From positions 186,001 through 250,000 of the forward strand of contig JANSXP010000001.1 of assembly GCA_024742875.1 (NCBI GenBank): DNA of 64,000 bases. The letters run 5' to 3'. Shown piece by piece: positions 11,302 to 46,447 of this stretch. The notes under the pieces are model-generated. The model worked only from the letters and a program-made list of their open reading frames with translations. It had not been told where the DNA came from and did no database searches. Position 1 is the first letter of the stretch; each line of letters begins with the position of its first letter. The position numbers and the translations under genes are program-made. The DNA comes from Planctomycetaceae bacterium (GTDB lineage Bacteria > Planctomycetota > Planctomycetia > Planctomycetales > Planctomycetaceae).

Positions 11302-12263
11302 ATGACAGCTTCACGGGTGGAATGCGGTGCGGAGGGTTTACCCCGGGATCGCTCGACGTCTGAGTGGCCTGAGGTGGGGGACGTGAGCGTGGTGATTCCC
11401 ATCTACAATGGGGCCGACTATCTGCGGGAGACACTGGATTCGGTGTTAGTGCAGTCTGTGTCGCCGCGACAGATTATTGTGGTGGATGACGGGTCAACCG
11501 ATCCTCGTGTGCAGCAGATCTGCATCGCTACGATTCACAGATCACGGTGTTGTCTCAGGCCAATCAGGGACAGTCGGTGGCCAGAAATCGGGGCGTCGAG
11601 GCCAGTACGGGGCGGTGGATCGCCATTCTTGATGCCGACGATGTGTGGCACCCGGACAAGTTGAAGCAGCAGCTGGCCGTCTGTCATGACGCGGACGTGG
11701 TGTACACGGGCGTGCGTCTGTTTGGGGCCGTCGAACGCGTGGCCACGACTCAGCACGTGGGACCGGAAACCATGCCACGGCCGACATCCGCACAGACCTT
11801 TGCCGGGCTGCTGCAGGATAACTTCATTACGCATTCCAGCGTGCTGATCCGGCGGTCGGCCTGGGAACGGGTGGGCGGCTATGACGTACGACTGCAGCGC
11901 GCAGTGGATTGGGACCTGTGACTGCGGCTGGCGGCCGCTGGCTGTCGCTTTCGCTGCGCACCCGAAGCGCTGACCCTGTATCGCTGGCGAAACGACTCTC
12001 TGTCCAGGCAGCATCAGGCGGCCTGCCGAGACCGGGTGAAGGTTCTGCGGCGGGCGCTGGCCGGTCCGGCAGCCGGCCGCTTGAGTGCCCAGGTTCGCCG
12101 CACCGCGTTCGCGGAAGTCTGGCGGGTCTGTGGCTGGTTTGCCGAGCCCGACAACCCGTGGCTGGCTCTGCAGAGTTATGCTCGGTCTTTGTGTTACCGG
12201 CCGTGGTCACGGGTTGTGTGGCGGGCCATCGTACGGACGCTCATCCGATCAGTTCGGAAATGA
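11302..12263 (+). pseudogene. Decayed family 2 glycosyltransferase (frameshift plus nonsense codon)
   Basis: Family 2 glycosyltransferases have a GT-A fold and transfer sugars from nucleotide donors. The start (ATG at 11302, AGGTGAGAG before it) leads into [20 protein letters not shown] and [10 protein letters not shown], the typical N-terminus. Around 11500-11515 the frame breaks: the sequence continues one base out of phase as [23 protein letters not shown], then [18 protein letters not shown], including the DxD-type DADD. At 11919-11921 a TGA stands where the family has Trp (DWDL-stop-LRLAAAG). The same frame then stays open with coherent protein sequence to a TGA at 12261. Two independent lesions argue for a pseudogene rather than one sequencing error. 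Its last 23 nt overlap the 3' end of the opposing DUF1501 gene. Confidence 0.85.
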
Positions 12264-13644
12264 CGTTTCCGCCAAACTGGCTGAGTTGTTTGAACCGCCC
12301 GGCGTGGTAGTAGGTCAGTTTGTTGTCGTCCAGCCCCAATAGATGCAGCAGGGTGACGTGGACGTCGCGGATGTGGTGGACACAGTCGACAGCTTTCAGG
12401 CCGACGTCGTCGGTCGCGCCGATGGTGTGACCGGCGTTGACGCCGCCTCCGGCGAACCACATGGCCATGGCTTCGGCGTTGTGGTCACGTCCGTAAGACT
12501 TGCCACCACCGCGCAGACCGTTGTCCGGTGTGCGACCGAATTCTCCGCAAAAGACAATCAGTGTCTCCCTGAGCAGATCCCGCTGTTTGAGGTCTTTGAT
12601 GAGCGCGGCAATCGGGCGATCGACGGAATTGATCAGCGACCCGTGGGCCCGCTCGATGTAATCGTGGCTGTCCCAGTTGCCGGCATAGGCCTGAACAAAG
12701 CGGACCCCTTTTTCGATCAGCCTGCGAGCCAGCAGACACTTACGGCCGAAGGCGTCCGTTTTTTGATCGCCGATGCCGTACAGCTGAAGCGTGTGTTGGG
12801 ATTCGCCCTCCAGATCAAGGACCTCCGGCACCTCAGTCTGCATGCGGTAGGCCAGTTCGTAAGACTTCAGCCGGGCCTCCAGGTCACTGCGTCCGGGGCG
12901 GGCGTTCAGATGCTGCTGGTTGAGCTGACCGAGCAGATCCAGATTGGCGCGCTGGTCTTCACTGGTCACACCCGGCGGCGGATTCAGATCCAGAATGGGA
13001 CTGCCGGCCGGTCGCAGCGGTGTCCCCTGAAACTGCGCGGGCAGAAATCCGTTGGACCAGTTGGCCGCGCCGCCCTGAGGGTAGCTGGAACGCGGCAGCA
13101 CGACAAAGCCGGGCAGATTCTGGTTTTCTGTGCCCAGACCATAGTTGACCCAGGCCCCCACGCCTGGATCTCCGCCGAAGCGATTGCCCGTGTTCACATG
13201 GTAGCAGGCGGTAGGGTGATTGACGGATTCCACATGGCAACCGCGAAAAAAGCAGATGTCGTCAACACAGTGCTGCAGTTGTTCCCATGGCGTGCTGATG
13301 TCCGCACCGGATTCGCCCGCTTTGACAAAATCGAACGGGCTTTTCACGAAGTAGCGTTTGCCGGAGGACATCGCACTTTGTTCTTCCCCGCTGCGGCTGA
13401 ATTCCTGCAGATGACGTTTGGCCAGTTCCGGCTTGGGGTCAAAGGTATCGATGTGTGAGGGGCCGCCTTCCATCATCAGGAAGATGCAGTTTTTGGCTTT
13501 GGCCGGATGATGAGGACCGGTCGCGCTGGTGGTGTTTGTCTCGTCGGCCTGCAGCAGCGAAGACAAAGCCACAGAGCCTAAAGAGGCTCCCAGCCCAAAC
13601 AGCGCATCACGACGACTGGGGCGGGCGTAGGCGGAATTCGTCAC
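12241..13644 (-). CDS. DUF1501 domain-containing exported protein
   Basis: Member of the sulfatase-like/alkaline-phosphatase-fold DUF1501 family that is heavily expanded in planctomycetes; the substrate is unknown. The N-terminus SRRDALFGLGASLGSVALSSLL looks like a twin-arginine-type export signal (SRRD then a hydrophobic run). Family hallmarks include IFLMMEGGPSHIDTFDPKP, NHPTACYHVNTG, an ETLIVFCGEFGRTP motif and GRDHNAEAMAMWFAGGGV near the end. I choose GTG at 13644 because GGAG sits 6 nt upstream; the frame is open to 13722, but that extension is unlike a leader. Length from this start is 467 residues, typical. Planctomycete DUF1501 genes usually follow DUF1553/DUF1549 partners; none is present here, so this is a solitary copy. 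Confidence 0.93.
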   Translation of the reverse strand: MTNSAYARPSRRDALFGLGASLGSVALSSLLQADETNTTSATGPHHPAKAKNCIFLMMEGGPSHIDTFDPKPELAKRHLQEFSRSGEEQSAMSSGKRYFVKSPFDFVKAGESGADISTPWEQLQHCVDDICFFRGCHVESVNHPTACYHVNTGNRFGGDPGVGAWVNYGLGTENQNLPGFVVLPRSSYPQGGAANWSNGFLPAQFQGTPLRPAGSPILDLNPPPGVTSEDQRANLDLLGQLNQQHLNARPGRSDLEARLKSYELAYRMQTEVPEVLDLEGESQHTLQLYGIGDQKTDAFGRKCLLARRLIEKGVRFVQAYAGNWDSHDYIERAHGSLINSVDRPIAALIKDLKQRDLLRETLIVFCGEFGRTPDNGLRGGGKSYGRDHNAEAMAMWFAGGGVNAGHTIGATDDVGLKAVDCVHHIRDVHVTLLHLLGLDDNKLTYYHAGRFKQLSQFGGNVISELIG

Positions 13645-32805: not shown

Positions 32806-35784
32806 ATGGTCCGTTCTGTCACGATGCGAAAGCTGCCTTTGCTGAAGGCGGCTTTTTTTGTGTCTGTGTGCTGCCTGATCGGCTGCTCGCAGTCGAAACC
32901 GCCGGAGGAAATTCTGCGGACCGCATCGCTTGCGCTCAGCCGGGGCGATTACGCTCAGGTCGAGCGGCTGGCGGACTCCATGCCGGCGGACGCCGAACAA
33001 TGGCAGGCCGTGATGCTGCTGTCAGCCGAAGCGGCCACGAAACAGGGCCAGGCCCGTGAAGCGCTGTCCCGCTATGAACAGGTCAACGAGAAAGATCCGG
33101 CCAGCAAAGAAGGGCAGGAGGCCGCGTTTTATCGCGCCGAAACACTGCTGGGACTGGCCGAACTCACTGAAGCCGAAGCGGCCTACGAGCAGGTCCTCAC
33201 GACGTCCCCCACCGATGGAATTACGAATGCCCGTCTGGCGTTTTTGAAGGCGCTCACCGGCCGGGAATGGGAAGCACTGCCGCACTATTTTGTGCTGATC
33301 AAGCGGGGGGATGCGGATTTCGGGGAGCTCGCGCTGGCGGCGGATGTGGGCCGCGCGCTGGAGCAGCCGGAATTTCTCGAGAACTGTCGCAAGCTGAATC
33401 CCGATGATCCCGGCGTGCGACAGGCGGTGGTGTCGCTGGCCTGGCATGATGGCGATCAGGACGCGCAGGACCAGTTGGAAGAACTGGTCCGTCAGTCGCC
33501 CGAGATGATCAGCGCGCAGGCACGACTCGGTGAGTTTCTGGTGGATGCCGTTGATCCTGGCGAGTTTCTCAGGTGGCACGCTCAGTTGCCTCCGGCGGCG
33601 GACAGCGATCCGGGCATCTGGCTGGTCCGTGGGTTGTGGGCTCGCAAACAGGGAAAGCTGCCGGTTGCGGTGGACTGCTTTTATGAGTCCATCATTCGCA
33701 CGCCCTTTCATCGCCGCGCCTATCATGTACTCGCGCAGGCATTGATTGTGCTCGAAGACGAACGGGCGGAAGACGTGCTGGCTTATTCAGAACGCATGAT
33801 TGCCCTGACGCAGTCGGTCGATCAGGTATTGATCAACGAGGGTGGCAGTGAGCCCGCGTTTCGTCGCACGGCGGAACTGCTGGAGGAGCTGGGGCGGATC
33901 TGGGAGGCGTGTGCATGGGCGGTGGTGGCTCGTGACGCTTTTCCCGGTGCGTCCTGGCCGACAGAGCTGTTTGATCGCAACACTGCCAGGCTGACCGAGG
34001 ACCTTCCATGGATTGAGCGGGAGAAAAACCTGGTGGCCGGTCGCACGCCCGGCAGCGTGCCCGAATTTTTCCAGCTGCTGGACGCGCAGTCGGCCGCACC
34101 GTCGACCGGTCGGCTGGCCGACACGCTGGACAGCCGCATTCAGTTTGTCGACACCCGTCTGATTCCGTTTGAGTATTACAACGCCCACGACGAGGCCACA
34201 AAAGGCCTGCGGACCCAGGAGCAGACAGGTGGGGCGGTGGGCGTCCTGGATGTCGACAGTGATGGGCGGCCGGATGTGCTGCTCACGCAGGGAACCGAAT
34301 GGCAGTCCGGCTCCGCCGTCCCTGCTGCGGACTCCCGTCTTTCTGACCGGCTGTTTCGCAATCGAGAGGATCGGTTCGAAGATATCACGGATGTTTTGGG
34401 GGGTGACAGCGGCTTTGGGCAGGGCTGTTCTGTGGTGGACTTCAACAACGATGGCTTTGATGACATCTATGTGGCCAACGTGGGGGCCAATGCGCTGTAC
34501 CAGAACATGGGTGATGGCACATTTGTCAATATCACCGATTCGCTGTCACTGGCACCGGCCGCATGGACGGTCAGCACACTGTGTATGGATCTGAACGGTG
34601 ACGGCCATCCGGATCTGTTTGATGTGAATTACCTCAGTGGAGATGATCTGTATGTGATGATCTGCGGCGGTCGAGCGTGTTCGCCGTCCGTGTTTCCCGG
34701 AGCTCAGGATCAGCTGCTGATCAGTAACGGTCAGGGGGGCTTTGAGAGAATCGATGGGGCGACGCCGGATCGGGATTCGAAGGGCCTGGGCATCGTCGCC
34801 TTTCAGCAGAACCCCGGCGACCGGCCGATGATCTTCATCGCCAACGATCAGGTGGCCAACTATTTTCTGGTGAATTCGCCGGCGGACAATCAGTGGAACA
34901 TCGAGCTGGCCAATCAGGCGATGATCAACGGGCTGGCGCTCAATGATGTGGGGCTCGCCATGGCGTGCATGGGAGTGGCAGTGGACGACTGGGACAACAA
35001 CGGGCTGTACGACCTGTTTGTGACCAACTTTCACGCCGAACCCAACACGCTGTACCTGCAGGACGCGCCCGGTCTGTTTCTGGACAATACCCGCGCCGCG
35101 GGGCTGCAGGCCGCCAGCATTCCCTACACGGGCTGGGGGACGCAGGCGCTGGATGCCGATCTGGATGGCTGGTCGGATCTGGTGCTGACCAACGGTCACG
35201 TGGATGACTATCGGGATGAAGGCGGCGAGTACCACATGCGGCCGCAGTTCTTTCAGAATGTCCAGGGCCGGTTTCGTGAACTGACCGCGTCAGCGGCCGG
35301 CCCCTGGTTTGGCGAAAAGTTTCTGGGCCGCGGCCTGGCACGGCTGGACTGGAATATGGATGGCCGGCCGGAGTTCATTGTGTCCAACATGAACGCACGG
35401 GTGTCTGTGATGAAAAACGAGTCGACCGGTGTGGGGCGATTTCTGAAGGTTCGTCTGGCGGCCGTGGCCACGGCCAGGGACGCCATAGGGGCCCGCGTCA
35501 CCGTGCAGGCGGGCGGCAACACCTGGGTGCGACAACTGACGGCCGGTGATGGCTATCTGGCCAGCAACGAGCGGGAACTGCTGTTTGGGCTGGGCACAGC
35601 CGCCACGATCGAACGGATTGATGTTGAATGGCCCTCCGGTGCCACATCTGTCATCAAAGACCTTTCGCCTGATTGTCGACTGCAACTGGTGGAGGGCCTG
35701 CCCACAGCCACCTGTGTGCGGGAAGAAGTGCTCTCGGCGGTTGACGTTTCTCTTCCGGATGTCTCTGCGGAACCGTCACCATGA
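32806..35784 (+). CDS. CRTAC1-type protein: lipoprotein with TPR, FG-GAP/VCBS and ASPIC/UnbV domains (copy 1)
   Basis: A 992-residue envelope protein. The N-terminal AFFVSVCCLIGCSQSK is a lipoprotein signal with a possible lipidated cysteine. Residues about 30-400 are TPR-like helical repeats (SRGDYAQVERLADSMP, AEAAYEQVLTTSP). Residues about 475-880 are FG-GAP/VCBS propeller repeats with calcium-type loops (DVDSDGRPDVLLTQG, DFNNDGFDDIYVAN, DLNGDGHPDLFDVN, DADLDGWSDLVLTN). The C-terminal ASPIC/UnbV domain shows RDAIGARVTVQAGG and LTAGDGYLASNERELLFGLG. Start is ATG at 32806 (an ATG at 32824 is also in frame). It overlaps the next, similar gene by 4 nt (ATGA), so the two are translationally coupled. 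It probably works in extracellular binding or complex formation; the partner is unknown. Confidence 0.92.
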   Translation: MVRSVTMRKLPLLKAAFFVSVCCLIGCSQSKPPEEILRTASLALSRGDYAQVERLADSMPADAEQWQAVMLLSAEAATKQGQAREALSRYEQVNEKDPASKEGQEAAFYRAETLLGLAELTEAEAAYEQVLTTSPTDGITNARLAFLKALTGREWEALPHYFVLIKRGDADFGELALAADVGRALEQPEFLENCRKLNPDDPGVRQAVVSLAWHDGDQDAQDQLEELVRQSPEMISAQARLGEFLVDAVDPGEFLRWHAQLPPAADSDPGIWLVRGLWARKQGKLPVAVDCFYESIIRTPFHRRAYHVLAQALIVLEDERAEDVLAYSERMIALTQSVDQVLINEGGSEPAFRRTAELLEELGRIWEACAWAVVARDAFPGASWPTELFDRNTARLTEDLPWIEREKNLVAGRTPGSVPEFFQLLDAQSAAPSTGRLADTLDSRIQFVDTRLIPFEYYNAHDEATKGLRTQEQTGGAVGVLDVDSDGRPDVLLTQGTEWQSGSAVPAADSRLSDRLFRNREDRFEDITDVLGGDSGFGQGCSVVDFNNDGFDDIYVANVGANALYQNMGDGTFVNITDSLSLAPAAWTVSTLCMDLNGDGHPDLFDVNYLSGDDLYVMICGGRACSPSVFPGAQDQLLISNGQGGFERIDGATPDRDSKGLGIVAFQQNPGDRPMIFIANDQVANYFLVNSPADNQWNIELANQAMINGLALNDVGLAMACMGVAVDDWDNNGLYDLFVTNFHAEPNTLYLQDAPGLFLDNTRAAGLQAASIPYTGWGTQALDADLDGWSDLVLTNGHVDDYRDEGGEYHMRPQFFQNVQGRFRELTASAAGPWFGEKFLGRGLARLDWNMDGRPEFIVSNMNARVSVMKNESTGVGRFLKVRLAAVATARDAIGARVTVQAGGNTWVRQLTAGDGYLASNERELLFGLGTAATIERIDVEWPSGATSVIKDLSPDCRLQLVEGLPTATCVREEVLSAVDVSLPDVSAEPSP

Positions 35785-38696
35785 GCGGTGTGAAGTGGCG
35801 ACTGCATCCAGCAGGCCTGCTTCTGGCAGGTCTGGCGCTGGCAGGTCTGGCGCTGGCGGCATGGCTGCTGTTTCCGCAGGGGGCATCCGATGCGGACGAA
35901 TTGGCACGCAAGGCGTCTTTGCTGGCGGCTCGTGGAGACACGGCCGCCGCCCGGGAACTGGCGGAGCAGTGTCTGCAGGCCAGCGACACGCAGCCAGACG
36001 CGCGGCTGCTGCTGGGCCAGCTGGATTTTGTCGACGGCGAATGGGAGGCCGCGCTGAACCATCTGCTGCAGATTTCTGCCGATGAGCGGCAACCGTGGGT
36101 CGAAGGGCGGCAGCTGGCTGCCACCATTTATCATCGGCACGTCTATCAGCTGAGCAGGGCAGAGGCCGCCTATCGGGACGTGCTGTCTGCTCGACCACAG
36201 GATCCGCAGGCGCTGGAAAACTATGCCCAGCTGCTGGGGCTGTGTGGCCGGCGAACAGAAGCGATTCCCCTGGTCCTGAAACTGATTAAAGGCGGCCACG
36301 ACACAGACCTGCTGATGCTGCTGTCGCGGGAGTCGGGTTCGCTCACAGATCCTGGCCTGCTGCAGGCTGCCGCTCAGGTCAGTCCGCAGGATCCCAATCC
36401 TCTGCTGGGTCTGGCCACCGCCGCAATGCTGGATCTTGACTTTGTGACCGCGCAGCAGACACTTGATCAGGCGACCGCACTCAGCGCGCAACTGCCGGTG
36501 CTGATGGAAATGCGGGGCCGCGTGCTGCTGGCGACCGAACAGAGCGATCCGCTTTTGGCGTGGGCCGCCGCGCTGCCGGATGAGCGGTCGGCGGAAGTTT
36601 GGTTCGTACTGGGCGAACTGGCCGAGCGGCTGGGCGATTCCGACGGGGCGCTGCGCTGTTGCTGGGAAGGTTTGAAGCAGCGGCCCGAATCTCTGGCGGC
36701 CATGAATCGGATCGCGCGGCTGCTGACCGCCCAGGGAAGGCCTGAAGAAGCCAGCCTGTTTTTTGAGCGGGTGGAACAGCTGAACGCCTTTCGTGGCCAC
36801 CAGCGGCTGGCGATTATGTCAGAAGAGCGTCCCACGTTTGATCAGTTTCTGGCCATGATTGAAAGCTACCATCTGGTGGGTCGGCACTGGGAGGCGCTGG
36901 CGTGGGGGCGGCTGGCCCGGGAGATGCAGCCGGATCATGGTCCGCTGAATGATCTGCTCAGTCGCATCGAGGCGACCGTTGACACGCTGCCGCTGCAGCT
37001 GACGGTCGATGCCGCCAATCCGGCACTCGCGATTGACCTGTCTGATTTGCCACTGCCTGCGCTGCAGTCACGTTCTGCCACACAGAACGGCACGTCCACT
37101 TCGCCGGAGATTGCGTTTGTGCGGCAGACGACGGAGGTTGGCTTTGATTTTCAGTACTTTGCCGGCAGCGATCAGGTGACCAACCGCATGTACGAATTTG
37201 GTGGCGGCGGGATTGGAGTCATCGACTTCGATCACGATGGCTGGCCGGACGTGTATTGCACTCAGGGCGAACAGATCAACTCCCCGATCATTGATTCGCA
37301 AACCCATCATGACGCGTTGTTTCGCAATTTGCGTCAGCGTCTGATGGACGTGTCGCGGGAAGCCGGACTGCAGCAGGTGGATCAGTTCGGCCAGGGAGTC
37401 GCGGCCGGTGACGTCAACGGTGATGGATTCGCCGATCTGTATGTGGCCGGCACGCAAAACAATCAGCTGTGGCTCAACAATGGCGATGGTACGTTTACCG
37501 CTGGCGACCACGCATTTTCGCAGCGAACGTCCGAATGGACGACCAGCTGTCTGCTGGCCGATCTGAATGGTGATGGTCACACCGACATCTACGATGTCAA
37601 CTATCTCACCGGCGAACGCGTGTTTGAACGCCTGTGTGCCGATGAACACGGGCAAAACGCCATGTGTTCGCCCTATGACTTTGACGCGGCCGTGGATCGG
37701 GTGTGGCTGTCTGACGGGGCAGGCGGATGGCAGTCGGCGGCCAACTTCCTCCAGCCGCCTCCCGCCGGCAAGGGACTGGGCATCGTGGCGTTTAACGGAG
37801 GCGATGACCGGCTGTCGCTGTTTGTGTCCAACGATACGGTGGCCAATTTCTTTTACACGGCCAGCACGGCCGTGACCGACACGATGCGGGAGTCGGCTCT
37901 GACTGCGGGACTCGCGTTCAACGGTGACGGCAAGGCGGAAGCCTGTATGGGGATCGCGGCCGGGGACGGCGATGGCGACGGAGCCATTGATCTTCTGGTG
38001 ACCAATTTTCTGCACGAATCCAACACGCTGTACAGTGCCGCCGGGCCGGGCGTGTTTCGTGACCGCACGCGTGAACTGGGTCTGCAGGAACCCTCACTGC
38101 CCGTGCTGGGCTGGGGCACGCAGTTCCTTGACGCCAATCTGGATGGTCGTCAGGAGTTGTTTGTGGCCAACGGCTACACGCACGATCTGAGTCGTTTTGA
38201 CACGCCCTATGCCATGCGGGCGCATCTGTACGAGTTCACGCAGGAACGATTCACACGCCTGCCGATTGCGCAGCTGGGTGAGTGGGCGGGGCAGAAATTC
38301 GTCGCTCGTGCGGCCGCACGACTGGACTGGAATCGTGACGGCCGTTGCGATTTAGCGGTGGGCATGCTGCAGTCGCCCAGCTGTCTGCTCACCAATACGA
38401 CCGAAACCACGGGCCGGTTTCTGAGTTTGAATCTGGTGGCCACCGGCAGTGCCCGCGATGCACTGGGGACCGTCATCCGACTGGCCGACAGCGACGGTGT
38501 GCACCAGCTGACCGCCGGCGATGGGTATCAGGCCAGCAACCAGCGGTGTGTGCTGATCGGCTGCGGTGATCGGGACCGTCTGAGTCAGATCACAATCCAC
38601 TGGCCGTCGGGACGACAGCAGGTGCTCACGGACGTCGCCACCAATGCGCAATGGACGCTGGTCGAAGGCCGTCGCCCCGTGATTGTCCCTCGGTAA
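35781..38696 (+). CDS. CRTAC1-type protein: membrane-anchored TPR, FG-GAP/VCBS and ASPIC/UnbV domains (copy 2)
   Basis: A 971-residue paralogue of the preceding gene with the same domain order, so the pair arose by tandem duplication and then diverged. Here the N-terminus is an uncleaved-looking hydrophobic anchor (LLLAGLALAGLALAAWLL, encoded by a 15-bp direct repeat) rather than a lipobox. TPR-like repeats follow (AARELAEQCLQASDTQPDA and others, residues 40-390), then calcium-loop FG-GAP repeats (DFDHDGWPDVYCTQG, DVNGDGFADLYVAG, DLNGDGHTDIYDVN) and a C-terminal UnbV domain (RDALGTVIRLADSDG, LTAGDGYQASNQ). The start ATG overlaps the stop of copy 1. The next gene (MFS-spermidine synthase) starts 33 nt downstream, consistent with one operon. 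Confidence 0.92.
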   Translation: MSGVKWRLHPAGLLLAGLALAGLALAAWLLFPQGASDADELARKASLLAARGDTAAARELAEQCLQASDTQPDARLLLGQLDFVDGEWEAALNHLLQISADERQPWVEGRQLAATIYHRHVYQLSRAEAAYRDVLSARPQDPQALENYAQLLGLCGRRTEAIPLVLKLIKGGHDTDLLMLLSRESGSLTDPGLLQAAAQVSPQDPNPLLGLATAAMLDLDFVTAQQTLDQATALSAQLPVLMEMRGRVLLATEQSDPLLAWAAALPDERSAEVWFVLGELAERLGDSDGALRCCWEGLKQRPESLAAMNRIARLLTAQGRPEEASLFFERVEQLNAFRGHQRLAIMSEERPTFDQFLAMIESYHLVGRHWEALAWGRLAREMQPDHGPLNDLLSRIEATVDTLPLQLTVDAANPALAIDLSDLPLPALQSRSATQNGTSTSPEIAFVRQTTEVGFDFQYFAGSDQVTNRMYEFGGGGIGVIDFDHDGWPDVYCTQGEQINSPIIDSQTHHDALFRNLRQRLMDVSREAGLQQVDQFGQGVAAGDVNGDGFADLYVAGTQNNQLWLNNGDGTFTAGDHAFSQRTSEWTTSCLLADLNGDGHTDIYDVNYLTGERVFERLCADEHGQNAMCSPYDFDAAVDRVWLSDGAGGWQSAANFLQPPPAGKGLGIVAFNGGDDRLSLFVSNDTVANFFYTASTAVTDTMRESALTAGLAFNGDGKAEACMGIAAGDGDGDGAIDLLVTNFLHESNTLYSAAGPGVFRDRTRELGLQEPSLPVLGWGTQFLDANLDGRQELFVANGYTHDLSRFDTPYAMRAHLYEFTQERFTRLPIAQLGEWAGQKFVARAAARLDWNRDGRCDLAVGMLQSPSCLLTNTTETTGRFLSLNLVATGSARDALGTVIRLADSDGVHQLTAGDGYQASNQRCVLIGCGDRDRLSQITIHWPSGRQQVLTDVATNAQWTLVEGRRPVIVPR

Positions 38697-38729
38697 AACA
38701 ACAGCCCCGCCTGCGGAATTGACACTGTC

Positions 38730-41402
38730 ATGAGAGATGCTTCGTCCACCACCAGCCCGCTTCGCACGCTGTTGTGTGGATTGATCGTGTTTTTATCCGG
38801 CACCGCCTCGCTGACGTACGAAATTGTCTGGCAGCGGGAAATGTTTCATCTGTTTGGCGCCAGTGCGCGAGCCACGGCCGCCATCCTGACGGCCATTTTT
38901 CTGGGGATCGCCTTCGGCAGTCTGCTGATTCGCTCCCTTGCGGCCACCAGTCAGCGTCCCCTGCTGCTGCTGGCTGTTCTGGAAGGCACGATTGGCGTGT
39001 GGGGCCTGCTCGTCCCTCGACTGCTGACGATGTCCGAGGGCCTCTACGTGTCGACGGCGCACCGCATCGGCGAAGACTCGCCCTGGCTGACGCTCGCGCG
39101 ATATGCGTTTGCCATTATCCCGCTGCTGCCGGCCACGCTGTGCATGGGGGCCACGATTCCCGTGATGGTGAAAGCCTTCGGCCGCGCCGGGTCAGCGTCT
39201 GTGTCCTGGATTTACGGCTGGAATATTCTGGGGGCGGTGACCGGTTCCCTGTCGACGGGGCTGGTCTGGATTCGCTTGCTGGGGCAACAGGAAACCGCCG
39301 GTGTGGCGGTCGCCATGAACGCGGTGATCGTTGTCGGCTGCCTGTGGCTGTCACGACAACGCGGACATGCGTTCACCGCGCCACCGCCTGACGCGTCCCG
39401 TGCCGACAGTGTGGTTGCTGTCCGCGCCCGAATTCCGACCCCGGCGATGCTGTATTTTGTGGCCGGATTTGTGGCACTGGGCCTGGAGGTCGTCTGGCTG
39501 CGCTATCTGGGAATTGTCAATTCCAACTCCAGCGTGACGTTTTCGCTGACGTTGGCGTTTTATCTTTCGGGCATGGGAGTGGGCAGTCTGTTCGTGTATC
39601 CGGCGCTGCGCCGCCGTGCTTCACCGGAGTCGGTCTTCAGCGTGGCCAATGCGGGGGTTGTGGTGGCCTCGCTGCTGACATTCCCTGTCATCTACTGGGC
39701 GCCGCATCTCAATCAGGCGGGCATCGATCTGCCGTCAGCGGCCGGAGAACTGACGCTGTCGAAGCTGTATCGCACGGAAGCCTGGATCGTCTTTCTGCTG
39801 CTGTTTGCTCCCACCATTTTTATGGGGTTGGTGTATCCCGCGGTGTGTGACTGTCTGGAGGGACCGACCGAACGACGGCAGCGGTGGATTGGGCAGTCCT
39901 ACTTTTTTGGCACCCTGGGGTCAGTTGCCGGCATCATTGGCATTTCTCTGTTTGTGATTCCGCAGCTGGGACTGCACGGCACCTTTGCTCTGCTGGTGAC
40001 GCTCTCCGGCGCGCTGTGTGTGATATCCCTCGGTCAGCCGTTGCCAGCCGTCCGTCGCCGCGTGCTGACCGTCCTGATGGTGGGCTGCAGTGCGTTTGCC
40101 TGGTATCAGGCGTGGGACCCGCAGCCAGTTTTGCGCAACACAATTGCTCGCAAAGTGGGAGATCGCTGGATGGAACGCACGCCGGACGGCAAAGCCACGC
40201 AGACGGAAATTGTGCGGTTTCAGGCGGGGGCTTCGGGCACCGCCATCACCAAGTTCGAATCCGAAACAGATGATTACTTCGTCTATGTGGACGACCAGTT
40301 GGTGGCGTCCACCAACATTGAAGCCCGCGTGGATGCCGTCATGCTGGCCCACCTGCCGCTGCTGCTGCATCCACAGCCCACCAGCGAACTGACGGTGGGC
40401 TTTGGCACGGGGGGGACCAGCTATGCGATCACCACTCACGGCGTCCAGGCGTACTGCGCAGAAATTGAGCCCGAGGTTCCGGCGGCCGCCCATCTGCTGG
40501 TGGGACAAAATTACGGCATTCTGGATCGCGACGATTTCCATCTGATTCTCAATGACGCTCGCGATCACCTGCACATCACGCAGCGGCAGTACGACGTGAT
40601 TGCCACTGACGTGACCAATCTGCAGTACAAGCAGAACAGCAGTCTGTACACAGTCGAATATTTTCAGCTGATGAAAGATCGCATGCCGGATGATGGTGTG
40701 GCGTGTGCCTGGATACCGATGGCCGCCATTGCCACTGATGAACTGCGGATTCTGATGAAGAGCTTTCAGCACGTGTTTCCGCATGCCACGCTGTGGTTCA
40801 TGAATCACACGCATACCAACTTCGGCATTCTGATCGGCACACCCGAACGACTGCAGATTGACTACCGGCGATTTGCCGCCGCGTTTGAGATTCCGAAAGT
40901 CAAAGACAGCCTGCAGCAGATTGGCCTCGTGCATCCGATGCAGCTGGTCACCTGCCTGCAGCTGGACGAAGACGGCTACCGCACGTTCTGCGGTGACCTG
41001 CCCCTGCACACAGACAACCGCCCCACGCTGGAGTTTTCTTCACCACTGAGTTTCTATCAGTACAACGAGACGTTCTGTGACAACATGGTGGTGCAGCTGA
41101 AACTGCGGCCGGTCGATTTTCGGCCGCTGGTGATTCATGGTCCGGCCGCAGACGATCCTGTCTGGGAATCGCATCGTGTGGCCGCTCAGGCTGGGTGCGA
41201 TGTGATTCTGGGCATGTATCAGTTTCAAACGCTGTGGCGCCGCCGGCAGGCGGAGGCCGCCACGAGCGTGCTGATTCGATCCATGCAGGCGGCGGAAGCC
41301 GGCATGGCGGCGTGGCCGGAAGATGCCACGCGCGAACGTCTGTACGTGGACTTTTTTGATGATGCCAATAGGCGTTTGCAGTCACGTCTGCCGGGAAACT
41401 GA
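38730..41402 (+). CDS. Fused MFS-type membrane domain and spermidine synthase-like domain
   Basis: An 890-residue inner-membrane protein. Residues 10-450 contain twelve or more hydrophobic segments, starting LLCGLIVFLSGTASLTYEIVWQREM, the usual opening of fused MFS/spermidine synthase proteins. The C-terminal region (about 500-800) resembles polyamine aminopropyltransferases: VGFGTGGTSYAITTHGVQAYCAEIEPEV is the SAM-site strand and loop, DARDHLHITQRQYDVIATDV the conserved follow-on, and a gatekeeper segment NSSLYTVEYFQLMKDRM comes later. The substrate and even catalytic competence of such fusions are uncertain; polyamine production is not proven by motif alone. It probably ends the operon that begins with the DUF1559 or lipoprotein gene. 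The following 254 nt contain a likely new promoter. Confidence 0.9.
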   Translation: MRDASSTTSPLRTLLCGLIVFLSGTASLTYEIVWQREMFHLFGASARATAAILTAIFLGIAFGSLLIRSLAATSQRPLLLLAVLEGTIGVWGLLVPRLLTMSEGLYVSTAHRIGEDSPWLTLARYAFAIIPLLPATLCMGATIPVMVKAFGRAGSASVSWIYGWNILGAVTGSLSTGLVWIRLLGQQETAGVAVAMNAVIVVGCLWLSRQRGHAFTAPPPDASRADSVVAVRARIPTPAMLYFVAGFVALGLEVVWLRYLGIVNSNSSVTFSLTLAFYLSGMGVGSLFVYPALRRRASPESVFSVANAGVVVASLLTFPVIYWAPHLNQAGIDLPSAAGELTLSKLYRTEAWIVFLLLFAPTIFMGLVYPAVCDCLEGPTERRQRWIGQSYFFGTLGSVAGIIGISLFVIPQLGLHGTFALLVTLSGALCVISLGQPLPAVRRRVLTVLMVGCSAFAWYQAWDPQPVLRNTIARKVGDRWMERTPDGKATQTEIVRFQAGASGTAITKFESETDDYFVYVDDQLVASTNIEARVDAVMLAHLPLLLHPQPTSELTVGFGTGGTSYAITTHGVQAYCAEIEPEVPAAAHLLVGQNYGILDRDDFHLILNDARDHLHITQRQYDVIATDVTNLQYKQNSSLYTVEYFQLMKDRMPDDGVACAWIPMAAIATDELRILMKSFQHVFPHATLWFMNHTHTNFGILIGTPERLQIDYRRFAAAFEIPKVKDSLQQIGLVHPMQLVTCLQLDEDGYRTFCGDLPLHTDNRPTLEFSSPLSFYQYNETFCDNMVVQLKLRPVDFRPLVIHGPAADDPVWESHRVAAQAGCDVILGMYQFQTLWRRRQAEAATSVLIRSMQAAEAGMAAWPEDATRERLYVDFFDDANRRLQSRLPGN

Positions 41403-41656: not shown

Positions 41657-42265
41657 ATGCGTCGAACACTTCTGGCCGGTTGGCTGATGCTGTTGCCGAT
41701 GGGTGGTCTGTACCACCTTGTGGCCGGCCCCGCCCACCGAGAGATGGACCTGATCGGTGACTCGCTCCGCGAAGCGAGACAGCACGTTGCCAATGAACAG
41801 TGGTTTGAGGCTGTGCCCGCCTTCGAGAAAGCTCTGGAAGGCATGCCGGAAGAGCTGACCCGCGAAAACCGCGCTCTGCGGCTGGAGCTGGCTCAAGCCA
41901 AAATGAACGCCTCCAAACTGCCGGACGCTCACGCGGATCTGAAAGGACTGCTGGACGAACTGCTGGCTGATGACGAGTCGGCTGACAGGGAGTCGAACGC
42001 ACGGCTCGAACGCGAAGTGCGTGAGACGCTGGCCAACTCTCAGTTTTACATGACATGGCTGATGCGACTGGAAGGTCTGCCCGCTTCTGAGTGGGAGCCG
42101 GAGATTGAATCGGCCCGTCAGAATTACCGCATGCTGGCGGCGACCGCCGAACAGGCGGGTGACTCGGCCGCTCTGGAAGAACAGCAGAAGAATCTGGAAG
42201 CCGCCATCAAACTGGCCCGCCTGGACCTGGGGGATCTGCAGGGACTGCCCCTGCCCAACCAGTGA
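41657..42265 (+). CDS. Small exported helical protein; frame continues past an in-frame UGA
   Basis: 202 residues up to a TGA at 42263-42265. MRRTLLAGWLMLLPMGGLYHLVAG is a signal peptide or anchor. The rest is charged and helical with a TPR-like feel (LREARQHVANEQWFEAVPAFEKALEGMP). I know no named family. AAAGGAA lies 8 nt before the ATG. After the TGA the same frame remains open for 40 codons to TAG at 42386-42388 and encodes a Gly/Lys/Arg/Ser-rich tail beginning Q-G-C-G. This looks like the protein's natural C-terminus, so the TGA is a recent nonsense mutation, a readthrough site or a selenocysteine codon (UxxC). The next gene, a large membrane protein, begins 132 nt after the TAG. Confidence 0.8.
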   Translation: MRRTLLAGWLMLLPMGGLYHLVAGPAHREMDLIGDSLREARQHVANEQWFEAVPAFEKALEGMPEELTRENRALRLELAQAKMNASKLPDAHADLKGLLDELLADDESADRESNARLEREVRETLANSQFYMTWLMRLEGLPASEWEPEIESARQNYRMLAATAEQAGDSAALEEQQKNLEAAIKLARLDLGDLQGLPLPNQ

Positions 42266-42388
42266 CAGGGTTGTGGAACCGGGCGCGGTCGCGCTCGTCG
42301 CAGTGGCAAAGGCAAAGGTAAGTCACCCAAAGCTCAGGATGGCCGCGGAGCTTCGGCCGGACCTCCGGCTGACGGTCAGGGTTCCTAG
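42263..42388 (+). other. In-frame UGA with 40-codon downstream extension
   Basis: The TGA (codon 203 of the preceding gene) is followed in frame by 40 sense codons and a TAG. The extension has 12 Gly, 5 Lys, 5 Arg and one Cys three residues after the TGA, giving UxxC if UGA is read as Sec. Its composition matches the flexible basic tails common in planctomycete exported proteins and is unlike random out-of-frame sequence, since there are no rare or aromatic residues. Whether it is translated is unknown. Confidence 0.55.
42281..42296 (+). promoter_or_regulatory. Hairpin with GGUC loop downstream of the in-frame UGA (SECIS-like candidate)
   Basis: GGGCGC (42281-42286), loop GGTC, GCGCTC (42291-42296) form a 6-bp stem with one G-U pair. 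The loop GGUC starts 22 nt after the UGA; in E. coli fdhF the SelB-binding hairpin also has GGUC in its loop, about 19 nt after its UGA. In GC-rich DNA such a hairpin can arise by chance, so this is a candidate only. Confidence 0.3.
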
Positions 42389-42415: not shown

Positions 42416-42457
42416 AAGGCGTGATTTTCCAGACACCTGGGATCTGACGCCTTTTTT
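42416..42457 (+). terminator. Rho-independent terminator after the small exported protein gene
   Basis: AAGGCGT (42416-42422) pairs with ACGCCTT (42447-42453) and is followed by TTTT. The 24-nt loop can fold a little further. It lies 28 nt after the TAG that ends the UGA extension, as expected if the extension belongs to the gene. Confidence 0.65.
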
Positions 42458-42520: not shown

Positions 42521-45500
42521 ATGAAACGCAACGGACTTTCGACCGGCCTGTCAGTACTGCGGGCCCTCACCGTCCTGGGGGCGATCAGTCTGCCGACCGC
42601 CCACGCTCAGAACGCCACACGAGCCACCACCATTCAGGCCACCCAGCTGCGCAAAGCACTGCAGCAGGCTGGCAGCCTGCCGATTCAGGTGCCTCCCGGA
42701 GCCGTCATCCGATCGGGCACCGTGCTGACACCAGATGGCGCCGCCGTCACGCTGGCGGCAGCCGGTGCGGCCGACCCGGCTGCGGATCCCCAGCGCGCTA
42801 CGCAGCGCAAGGCCGTGCTGAGCAAGCTGACGTTTGATCGTCGTCCGTCCGCCATTCTCAAAGCGTGGTCTGCGCCCCCCAGGAAAGAGGCCGACCCTGC
42901 AACAGATCCTGCAGCAGACAAGGAGCGACCGAAAGACGGCGCCCCGGAGGGTGCCGCCGCGGAAGGTGCCGCTGAAGAAACCACGCCGGAAGAGAAACCG
43001 CTGACGGACGCCGAGAAGAAGGCCAAAGAGGAAGCCGAAAAAACCAAAGCCGCCGCGGAGAAGCTGGCCAAAGAGATGGAGCAGCTCAAAGCCGATGTGG
43101 AGACGCTCAAGCGAAATGTCACGCTGGCCAACTGGCCGGACGTGGGCACGTTCATCGGCTCACTGGAGGAAGACGAGTCCAAAGCGCTCTATCTGAAGCT
43201 GCTGCAGTCACTGCTGGCCGGCCCTCCCGGTCAGCCCAAAGCCCGCAGCGGTCAGATAATCGGTGAGCGCAACGTGATCCGCGCGTCTGATGTCATTGCG
43301 CTGGCCGAGCTTTGTCCTGTGGAAAAACTGGAAGACACGCACATCAGCAGCCTGGCCCGTTTGGCGTCGCTGTGTCAGGCCGAAGGCCAGGCGGAGTACA
43401 TCTTTCTGAAGACGCTCGAAGAGCACGTGGCCGAAAAGGGCGAGAAGAAGCTCGATCAGCGGTCCGCGGCCCGCATTCTGTTTATGGCTGGTCGCATTGA
43501 TCAGGCCAATTCTTTCCTGCCGGATATCGCCGCGGCTGATGCCGACGAGGATCTGGAAGCGCTCAGCATTCTTACGGACGTGTTCTTTCGGAAGTACCAG
43601 CTGGAGTCGGACAAGAGTTATCTGGAGCAATCCTGGCAGGCCGCGCAGTTGCTGCTGGCTGCGGAGAAGGCAGACGAAGCCCAGCAGCGCAAAGCCATGC
43701 AGCGATGTGTGCAACTGGTGCCCCTGATCAAAGAAGAACTGGGGCAGCAGTGGTTGACCGACAGTTTTACCAGTGAACCTCAGCAGGGAATGGAGATCAT
43801 TGCCGGAATTGGCGGTGCGTCGGCGGAGTCCATGAAGCTGCAGCTCAATCGTCCTTCCGAACGTGTGGCCACGCTCAAGCTGCAGCAGACGGCGGTGAAC
43901 GCCCTGCTGGACGAAGCGCCTGATAAGGCAAAATCATGGGGCAGCATGCTGCACCTGCTGGCCGCCAACTGGCTGCGTGAAGCCACGTACTCCCGCAAAT
44001 ACGACAGCACCACATCGCGTGGTCCTACCATGACGCGCGATATGTATGGCAACTATTTTTACAGTGGCACATCTCGCAGCTCGTCGCCACCGCAGGGGAT
44101 GCCGCGGCCGATTTCATCGGGAGAAGTGCTGGATGTGAAGCCGGGCGAAAAATGGCTCACCTACCTGGAGCCTGGCTACCGGTCGCAGTTTTCCATCGAG
44201 ACCGCCCGTCTGCATCTGCGGGTGAAGGAAGAGGCGGAAGCCTTTCCTTACATTGAGACGCTGGCGAAAACCCATCCGGAAGAAGCCACGGAACTGGTGA
44301 AAGAGTTTCTGGACGTCTGGGCGGCCAACCACAATCCGAATTCCGAGCGGCAGCGTACCAGCATCTACATGTTCAGCTTTGGCTACAATCAGCGGGCCCA
44401 GGGCATTCCTCTGACGCGCAGCCGCCAGGTTCGCAATCTGGAAGAGCTGGCCGGCTGGGTGAAACGCATCCGCCAGCTGCCTCTGGAAGACATTGACGAT
44501 CGCTGGATTTCGGCCGCGTTCCGCAATGTGCACAGCTCTGCAGAAGTTTATCAGCTGAGCGACATGGAACGGGTGTTCGGCAATACGGAACAGATGGAGC
44601 CCAAAACGCTGGCCGCACTGCTGCAGACCATGCGAATGAATCTGGCCACCATCTGGCGACAGCCCAAAGTGCAGCAGCAGGCCAAGACCAATCGCAAGCA
44701 GCCGGAAATCGAAGCCGAAGTGGTGCGGGGCTACAAGGCGGCCAACCAGCTGCTGACGCAGGCCATCGAGGCGCATCCGGACAACTGGCAGCTGCAGCTG
44801 GTCAAAGCCTCCATGATGCACGATGAAAACGACTATCAGGCCGAGCTGAAAAAGTCGTCGGGTTTTGCGGGCGTTCGCAAGTCGGCACTGGAAGGTTTCC
44901 AGAAGGCCTTTCAGTTGTATGTGGCCGGTGTGTCCGATCTGAAAGAGACTGAATACAGCATTGAGCCACTGCAAACGTGGTTTTACGCTTCACTGGGAGC
45001 CGTTGATCTGGCGCAGGTCAATCAGGACAAACAGCCCGTTCTGGCACAGATCCCACTGATCAAAGCGGCCTTCGAGCAACTGCCGAGTGAGTCACGGGAA
45101 AAGCATCTGGCGATGTTTGCCAATGACCTGTTCACTCGCATGAGCCGTGTGAATCCGGGCGTGAAGTTCCGCTACGTGCGAGAAGGGCTGGAGATTGTGG
45201 GAGACCATGAACAGGCCGCCGAAGCCCGCAAGGTCTTTACCTACTACAACGACCTGGTGACGGAGATCAAGCTGGAAGCAGAACTGGATGGCGGTCCGGC
45301 CGTGGGGAGTGAGCAGCCGTTTGGTTTGTATGTCAGCCTCAAACACACCAAGGCCATCGAACGTGAATCGGGCGGCTTTGCCAAGTACCTGCAAAACCAG
45401 AACAGTGGCAGCGGCTACTACTACAACTACGGTCGACCAACGGAAAACTACCGCGACAAGTTTGAGCAGACGGTTCGCGATGCTCTGGACGAGCATTTTG

Positions 45501-46447
45501 AGATTTTGTCGGTCACATTTCAGCCGGACAGCGTGAAGTCTCGGGCGACCGCCCAGCCGGACTGGCGAAAGACGTCTTATGCCTACATCCTGCTCAAAGC
45601 GCGGGGGCCGGAGATCGACCGCATCGCGCCTTTGAAACTGGATCTGGATTTCATGGACACGTCCGGATACGCCGTGCTGCCTGTGGAGTCTCAGGCGCTG
45701 CTGGTGGACTGCACGACCACGGATGTCCGTCCGTTCGATCAGCTGTCGCTCACGCAAACACTGGACGAACGTCAGGCTAAAGACGACAAGCTGGTGCTGG
45801 AAGTCAAGGCCGTGGCGCAGGGCCTGATTCCTTCCCTGGATGATCTGATGGAGATGAAGTTCGCCGATTTCGAAGTTGACACTGTGGAAGACAACGGAAT
45901 TTCGGTCTCACGCTTCGATCCGGAGAGCAATCAGCCGGTGGTGGTCTCCGATCGCCTGTGGACGGTGACACTCAAAGACAAACAGGCGTCCGCAGAGGGT
46001 GACCGGCAGTTTATGTTTGCCAGCGCCAAAGTGCCGCTGAAAGAAGAACTGTGGCAGCGGTATGATGATGCGGATCTGGTTGCTGTGGAGCAGTCGGTGA
46101 CGCTGCAGGAACAGTATGATCAGCCTGATCGCACGGCTCAGTTTGTCGCCATCGGCCTGGCCATTCTGGCGATCGCAGGAGGATTTTTGTTCTGGTTCCT
46201 TCGCCGCAGGGATGAGTCAGAAGGGGAAGTCTCGGAGCGTTTTGTTGTGCCCGCCGATGCCACGCCGTTTAACGTGCTCTCGCTGCTGAAGAACATCGAA
46301 GCCAACAACGGGCTCTCGGTGGACAGGCAGCAGGAGCTGGCCACCTCCATCAATCGACTGGAGCGACATTTCTTTGCCGACGAAAAAGACGTGGAGATCC
46401 CCGATCTGCAGGAGCTGGCTCAGACCTGGGTGAAGAAGGCTCGCTGA
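42521..46447 (+). CDS. Large membrane-anchored protein of unknown function (1308 aa)
   Basis: I do not recognise a family. Visible features in order: signal peptide (residues 1-29, ending AHAQ); an Ala/Pro/Glu low-complexity linker (about 95-165); a long charged coiled coil (TDAEKKAKEEAEKTKAAAEK..., about 165-205); a large, mostly helical region (205-900) with TPR-like character; a mixed region; one transmembrane helix near 1210-1230 (AIGLAILAIAGGFLFWFL) followed by RRRDE; and a short cytoplasmic C-terminal domain ending in helices. Topology is therefore a large periplasmic part, one membrane pass and a small cytosolic tail. A strong terminator follows. The neighbours are the small helical exported protein before it and a PilT-type ATPase after it. 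Confidence 0.85.
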   Translation: MKRNGLSTGLSVLRALTVLGAISLPTAHAQNATRATTIQATQLRKALQQAGSLPIQVPPGAVIRSGTVLTPDGAAVTLAAAGAADPAADPQRATQRKAVLSKLTFDRRPSAILKAWSAPPRKEADPATDPAADKERPKDGAPEGAAAEGAAEETTPEEKPLTDAEKKAKEEAEKTKAAAEKLAKEMEQLKADVETLKRNVTLANWPDVGTFIGSLEEDESKALYLKLLQSLLAGPPGQPKARSGQIIGERNVIRASDVIALAELCPVEKLEDTHISSLARLASLCQAEGQAEYIFLKTLEEHVAEKGEKKLDQRSAARILFMAGRIDQANSFLPDIAAADADEDLEALSILTDVFFRKYQLESDKSYLEQSWQAAQLLLAAEKADEAQQRKAMQRCVQLVPLIKEELGQQWLTDSFTSEPQQGMEIIAGIGGASAESMKLQLNRPSERVATLKLQQTAVNALLDEAPDKAKSWGSMLHLLAANWLREATYSRKYDSTTSRGPTMTRDMYGNYFYSGTSRSSSPPQGMPRPISSGEVLDVKPGEKWLTYLEPGYRSQFSIETARLHLRVKEEAEAFPYIETLAKTHPEEATELVKEFLDVWAANHNPNSERQRTSIYMFSFGYNQRAQGIPLTRSRQVRNLEELAGWVKRIRQLPLEDIDDRWISAAFRNVHSSAEVYQLSDMERVFGNTEQMEPKTLAALLQTMRMNLATIWRQPKVQQQAKTNRKQPEIEAEVVRGYKAANQLLTQAIEAHPDNWQLQLVKASMMHDENDYQAELKKSSGFAGVRKSALEGFQKAFQLYVAGVSDLKETEYSIEPLQTWFYASLGAVDLAQVNQDKQPVLAQIPLIKAAFEQLPSESREKHLAMFANDLFTRMSRVNPGVKFRYVREGLEIVGDHEQAAEARKVFTYYNDLVTEIKLEAELDGGPAVGSEQPFGLYVSLKHTKAIERESGGFAKYLQNQNSGSGYYYNYGRPTENYRDKFEQTVRDALDEHFEILSVTFQPDSVKSRATAQPDWRKTSYAYILLKARGPEIDRIAPLKLDLDFMDTSGYAVLPVESQALLVDCTTTDVRPFDQLSLTQTLDERQAKDDKLVLEVKAVAQGLIPSLDDLMEMKFADFEVDTVEDNGISVSRFDPESNQPVVVSDRLWTVTLKDKQASAEGDRQFMFASAKVPLKEELWQRYDDADLVAVEQSVTLQEQYDQPDRTAQFVAIGLAILAIAGGFLFWFLRRRDESEGEVSERFVVPADATPFNVLSLLKNIEANNGLSVDRQQELATSINRLERHFFADEKDVEIPDLQELAQTWVKKAR

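Follow-up and report, generated by a model that had tools for sequence, protein, structure and literature searches.

An in-frame UGA in a planctomycete gene very probably encodes selenocysteine and marks an apparently new family of tail-bearing proteins

A gene in DNA from a Planctomycetaceae bacterium raises the question of whether the TGA that ends its open reading frame is a stop codon at all. In the 64,000-nucleotide stretch analysed here (the window), an open reading frame on the forward strand (41657–42265) stops at this TGA (42263–42265), behind which the same frame continues for 40 more sense codons to a TAG (42386–42388). The original prediction had seen a candidate selenoprotein in this arrangement, with a Cys three codons behind the TGA and a GGUC-loop hairpin further on. 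The frame past the TGA, its 40 codons, the TAG and the Cys at +3 were all found as described. Read with selenocysteine (Sec), the whole gene (41657–42388, + strand) would encode 243 residues, a reading that draws on the open reading frame and its translation, on relatives with the same tail and on a structure model. The motif U-Q-G-C would then correspond to Sec203–Cys206, and no Cys precedes the site. Homologues with TGA or Cys codons aligned to this place, a covarying hairpin and sel genes in the genome strongly support the selenoprotein prediction, and from these comparisons we put the probability that the UGA at 42263 codes for Sec at about 97%.

Relatives of the gene were collected from genomes and contigs. 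Among 197 related genomes 34 matched, about three of them weakly, and a scan of contigs gave 14 loci. A 39-sequence profile gave matches in 63 of the 392 genomes sampled from the phylum, weak TPR matches included; both genome searches are samples (197 and 392 genomes) rather than a census. Ten loci were dropped as duplicates (L039–L041, L043, L044, L063, L066, L071, L072 and L105), weak matches from the search of relatives (G010, G039, G088, the second one in G000) and from the profile search (G371, G433, G450, G500, besides TPR-like hits) were left unread, and L109 and L112 stand outside the counts, having no Cys or TGA anchor. The 82 distinct loci classified, window included, comprise 50 with a TGA, 31 with a Cys codon and one with neither (L038). 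The TGA lies one codon beside the aligned place in 12 of the 50 TGA loci, and the TGA genes come from records of Planctomycetes and Verrucomicrobia. Since L093–L104 (12 TGA loci) and L081–L083 are near-copies within their groups, the 50 TGA loci are not 50 independent cases.

Aligned across the TGA, the homologues have TGA or Cys at this place and then a tail with a conserved end, as the selenoprotein prediction requires. All TGA and Cys loci keep the tail behind the site, and among the loci read no homologue ends at the TGA position. The end, of the type RGAS-GPPPDG-GS, is present on most members, of the TGA and Cys kinds alike. In the window the tail with its TAG occupies 42266–42388 (+ strand), and in comparison with three genes of the same genus its first 14 and last 15 codons show more silent than replacement changes. 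These comparisons support the view that the tail is translated. A fresh nonsense mutation of a CxxC protein, which the original prediction had also considered, or a sequencing error has only the TGA itself in its favour and can be rejected, as 49 further genes from Planctomycetes and Verrucomicrobia records carry a TGA at or beside the same place together with covarying hairpins. A terminator had been placed behind the TAG rather than behind the TGA: a weak candidate can indeed be read there (AAGGCGT, 42416–42422, and ACGCCTT, 42447–42453, then TTTT), but it is absent from the terminator scan, which considered loops of 3–8 only and listed none on the + strand between 41400 and 42600.

Three Sec arrangements occur in the family. 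UxxC is the commonest and includes the window. L081–L083 have two in-frame TGA codons 18 nt apart, giving Sec-x5-Sec, with the Cys replaced by Asn, and L093–L104, which form one family, have adjacent Cys and Sec (GGCUQGSG) and a different hairpin loop. In L088 a Sec is found with Ser at the place of the Cys. A quick maximum-likelihood tree, built on 81 rows from the part before the site, implies at least nine changes between Sec and Cys, five of which cannot be avoided without breaking well supported branches. Four copies of the gene occur in genome G130 (regions L113–L116), two with Cys (L018, L110), one with Sec (L111) and one with neither (L112); two of the copies stand in complete operons and two are lone. 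Neither Cys nor TGA is found in L038, L109 and L112, and the tails of L038 and L112 are of low complexity, rich in Gly, Lys and Glu. The thiol therefore appears dispensable in some relatives.

The exchange between Sec and Cys is not one for one. Within the approximately 36 codons examined behind the site, at least two further Cys were counted in 30 of the 31 Cys loci, and the Sec forms have one Cys (34 loci), none (13) or a second Sec (3). Twelve of the 13 Sec forms without a later Cys have a Cys just before the Sec. Most Cys forms have between three and five Cys in the place of the single Sec, as in CKGCCSGKC. One selenol thus does duty for several thiols, a pattern more in keeping with a redox couple than with a metal cluster.

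The search of the genome for selA, selB, selD and tRNA-Sec that the original prediction called for returned all four. In the window's own genome, selA (485.5 bits), selB (334.8 bits) and selD (256.3 bits) are all over their cut-offs, tRNA-Sec scores 77.8 bits with a tca anticodon according to ARAGORN, and selD and selA lie within 3.5 kb of each other on contig C22. Across the family, selA scores above the cut-off in the host genome for 49 of the 50 TGA loci, compared with 15 of the 31 Cys loci (16 without); the background is 102 of the 197 relatives. The sole TGA exception is L047, whose genome carries only part of a selA, at the start of a contig. A Fisher test of Sec against selA, L047 excluded and kinship ignored, gives 1.1e-8; on independent pairs only five pairs are available, with a mean of 1.5 agreeing and 0 opposing, which is too few for significance. 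G170 is counted as lacking selA, its full-length selA-like match (194 bits) being below the cut-off. Similar full-length matches below the cut-off, about 146–194 bits with that of G170, were seen in G179, G190 and the genomes of group f5, and perhaps represent another enzyme of the selA family.

The other components were scored in smaller sets. Tested in the 197 relatives only, selB is over the cut-off in nine of the ten TGA genomes first found among them, and also in G130; no selB over the cut-off was detected in G060, a genome 80% complete. In the 24 genomes tested for it, tRNA-Sec exceeds 60 bits in 9 of 11 TGA genomes, in all four Cys genomes with selA and in none of nine Cys genomes without selA. 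The TGA genomes G006 and G050 gave no tRNA-Sec over the cut-off, and two Cys genomes without selA lie just above the family cut-off of 47, with 49.3 (G165) and 47.6 bits (G100).

The hairpin with a GGUC loop that had been predicted behind the UGA is present (42280–42297, + strand), with a stem of 7 bp (42280–42286 paired with 42291–42297), the loop at 42287–42290 and a distance of 21 nt from TGA to loop. Its folding energy is unremarkable (−15.8 kcal/mol for 50 nt, z = 0.19, 119 of 200 shuffles folding at least equally well). As the hairpin is no more stable than shuffled sequence, its support is comparative. A GGTC-loop hairpin with a stem of at least 5 bp was found in 37 of the 50 TGA loci versus none of the 31 Cys loci, and when the tails of the 50 TGA loci are recoded synonymously at random, 1.99 GGTC hairpins are expected where 37 are seen. 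These 37 hairpins represent 27 distinct 18-mers, in which both sides change in six of the seven pairs and 87.8% of the cells pair, a percentage biased by the way the set was chosen, since only hairpins with 5 bp or more in the stem entered it. The 27 distinct hairpins reach a covariation score of 0.576, compared with 0.152 for shuffles; none of 500 shuffles equals the observed score, and sliding the register yields 0.235 at best. Kinship among sequences can raise such a score above that of shuffles, and the compensatory types are not forced by the stem selection.

Across loci the distance from TGA to loop is 18–33 nt. In the double-Sec genes (L081–L083) the first TGA is 39 nt from the loop, and by counting the GGTC hairpin stands 21 nt after the second TGA. 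The other 13 TGA loci have related G-loop hairpins, with a 7-bp stem and a GTC loop in L111 and a stem of 7–8 bp with a GTT loop in six Cys-Sec loci. For the remaining six of the 12 Cys-Sec loci the ungapped scan gave only a 4-bp stem, and a GGTTC-loop stem that is longer but includes one mismatch can be drawn by eye. The model of the bacterial SECIS (bSECIS) set out in section 5 of PMC13188914 has a G in the first two loop positions, a stem of 4–16 bp, a distance of 16–37 nt from the UGA and an MFE of at most −7.5. The comparison with published elements that had been proposed for the window hairpin comes out in its favour, since loop (GGUC), stem (7 bp), distance (21 nt) and energy (−15.8 kcal/mol) all agree with this model and the stem covaries. 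The hairpins of the TGA loci fit the model as given there except for the 39-nt distance, the last six Cys-Sec stems lying at its 4-bp minimum if no mismatch is accepted (PMC13188914). By comparison, SelB and tRNA-Sec would decode the UGA at 42263 at the GGUC-loop hairpin, a putative SECIS inside the coding sequence of the tail. Reading of the UGA as another amino acid, by Trp or a near-cognate tRNA and with no Sec, would account for the open frame and for nothing else; in 31 loci a Cys codon takes the aligned place, the hairpin is confined to TGA loci and selA accompanies TGA, so that we regard it as highly improbable.

Without SECIS decoding UGA is a stop, and the TGA of the window could act mostly in this way, with an anchored protein of 202 residues as the main product and the Sec form minor or selenium-dependent. 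As no Cys precedes the site, the protein ending there would be nothing but a TPR protein. The conservation of the tail in both Sec and Cys forms, the latter of which always make it, renders this unlikely, and such a reading would limit the efficiency of decoding rather than the identity of the residue as Sec.

What could a Sec-containing protein of this kind do? A structure predicted for the window protein from an alignment of 39 rows (mean pLDDT 87.3, with 47–62 in the blocks of the tail) consists of an anchor helix (residues 2–21), TPR-like helices up to residue 196 and a flexible, low-confidence tail bearing Sec203–Cys206. Judging from the anchor helix, the product would be exported and membrane-anchored. 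The model is all-helical, with no thioredoxin-like fold around the U/CxxC motif. Foldseek returned no PDB match at E ≤ 0.001, the weak hits including TPR proteins and BamD. In the four members scanned, no NCBIfam family reached its cut-off (best 17.2 bits of 750) and Pfam gave only TPR models, below cut-off.

The gene order around the family is consistent with membership in an operon. In 18 of 21 hand-chosen regions the order is MoxR, DUF58, an unknown protein, a first and a second VWA protein (VWA_A, VWA_B), this gene and a protein of about 1,300 aa; these are 16 of the 19 regions L113–L131 together with L137 (same genus) and L138. Seven of the ordered regions have the Sec form, ten the Cys form and one neither. 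The 1,300-aa gene was recognised by a short match only in L119 and L126, and L127 is cut at the region end. The exceptions are L113 and L114, which hold the extra copies of G130, and L131, with this gene and the 1,300-aa gene only. MoxR/AAA_3, DUF58 and VWA were confirmed by Pfam in L129. In the window the gene is accompanied only by the partner gene (42521–46447, + strand; 1,308 aa), a homologue of which follows the gene in 19 of the 21 regions and for which Pfam gave no family at E ≤ 0.1. The other five operon genes are on contig C162 (L134, 7433–12289), the seven-gene operon being split in the window's species and whole in G003 of the same genus (L137). The upstream neighbours in the window (35781–41402) encode a TPR/FG-GAP/ASPIC-UnbV protein and a spermine-synthase-domain membrane protein. 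In 36 chosen genomes lacking the gene, only distant VWA_A matches were found (12 of 36, at most 44.6 bits). The gene order supports the assignment of the gene to this operon, and the set seems to be gained and lost as a unit.

Cysteines are also conserved in one of the partners. VWA_A has Cys at three places in 17/19, 17/19 and 19/19 sequences, versus 2/10, 0/12 and 0/14 in distant VWA proteins, and one of them adjoins a MIDAS-like DxSGS motif (CVDVSGSM); in L129 the VWA_A gene lies at 11524–12444. With 10–15 sequences for each protein, VWA_A is the only operon protein with a Cys set near 90%; MoxR, DUF58 and the 1,300-aa protein have single Cys columns at 60–80%, and the unknown protein and VWA_B have no Cys column at 40%. 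The topology of VWA_A was predicted by eye from the positive-inside rule, and its conserved cysteines are candidate partners of the tail.

The operon resembles the poorly understood Bat (Bacteroides aerotolerance) operon, in which MoxR, DUF58 and two VWA proteins are likewise followed, at the BatC position, by a TPR-like anchored protein. It differs in the extra unknown protein between the DUF58 and VWA genes, in scores far below cut-off for BatA (68.3 bits of 380) and BatB (15.9 of 350), and in the 1,300-aa protein, which has no BatD model match at E ≤ 0.1. To our knowledge no Bat protein has a Sec/Cys tail. Mammalian thioredoxin reductase has a C-terminal Gly-Cys-Sec-Gly arm and perhaps works alike, with a Cys/Sec couple on a mobile tail; 12 relatives (L093–L104) read Gly-Cys-Sec-Gln. 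That enzyme is unrelated, and the family described here has no reductase domain in the same chain.

Taken together, we consider it likely that the gene encodes an anchored, exported selenoprotein whose TPR-like domain probably docks on the co-encoded MoxR/VWA complex and whose Sec tail may act as a reductant. The Sec-x-x-Cys couple of the flexible tail would reduce disulfides or oxidised thiols of this complex or of its clients, and in relatives the redox couple would be provided by Cys clusters, Cys-Sec or Sec-x5-Sec. The specific role of a thiol/selenol reductant of the periplasmic VWA complex, suggested by motifs and gene order, has in our view roughly even odds. A rather less probable alternative is that the Sec is real and the tail serves to bind or detoxify a metal, selenium or an oxidant, for instance peroxide. 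The Cys-rich Cys forms (CKGCCSGKC) would also suit a metal, and the model lacks a thioredoxin-like fold; set against this, one thiol or none beside the Sec does not give enough ligands to build the same metal site, and the gene keeps a fixed place in the order with the MoxR and VWA genes. More tentatively than the reductant role itself, the family across Planctomycetes and Verrucomicrobia may be the redox arm of a Bat-like MoxR/VWA machine, its Sec tail feeding electrons to the conserved VWA cysteines, one of them beside the metal site.

The window protein shares with known UxxC bacterial selenoproteins a UGA closely followed by a hairpin, homologues with Cys, the UxxC motif and the Sec machinery in the genome. 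Most characterised selenoproteins of the 2026 bacterial catalogue, as presented there, are thioredoxin-like (PMC13188914), in contrast to the all-helical, TPR-like protein with its motif on a flexible tail. None of the table entries of that catalogue, which lists 119 families and subfamilies in Table 1, was recognisable as this family by name, domain or motif, sequences being compared only through NCBIfam (PMC13188914). We found no paper describing the family in the open-licence PMC literature, judged on titles and abstract openings; two planctomycetes are reported to have selenoproteins (PMC4807772). By name, domain and motif the family is thus set apart from the catalogued ones and appears to be new.

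Gene callers that stop at UGA cut members of this family short. The family adds three Sec arrangements (UxxC, CU and U-x5-U) and their repeated exchange with Cys clusters, and it links selenium with a Bat-like operon. According to an earlier proposal, Bat proteins either bring oxidised periplasmic proteins back to the reduced state or export reducing power; the Leptospira test described in the same source lent this proposal no support, with no lowered oxygen tolerance on loss, and their function is said there to remain "elusive" (PMC3557215). A selenol at a defined residue would make the redox role of the operon directly testable, and if the redox-arm reading is true, it would give molecular substance to the old proposal of periplasmic reducing power supplied by Bat proteins.
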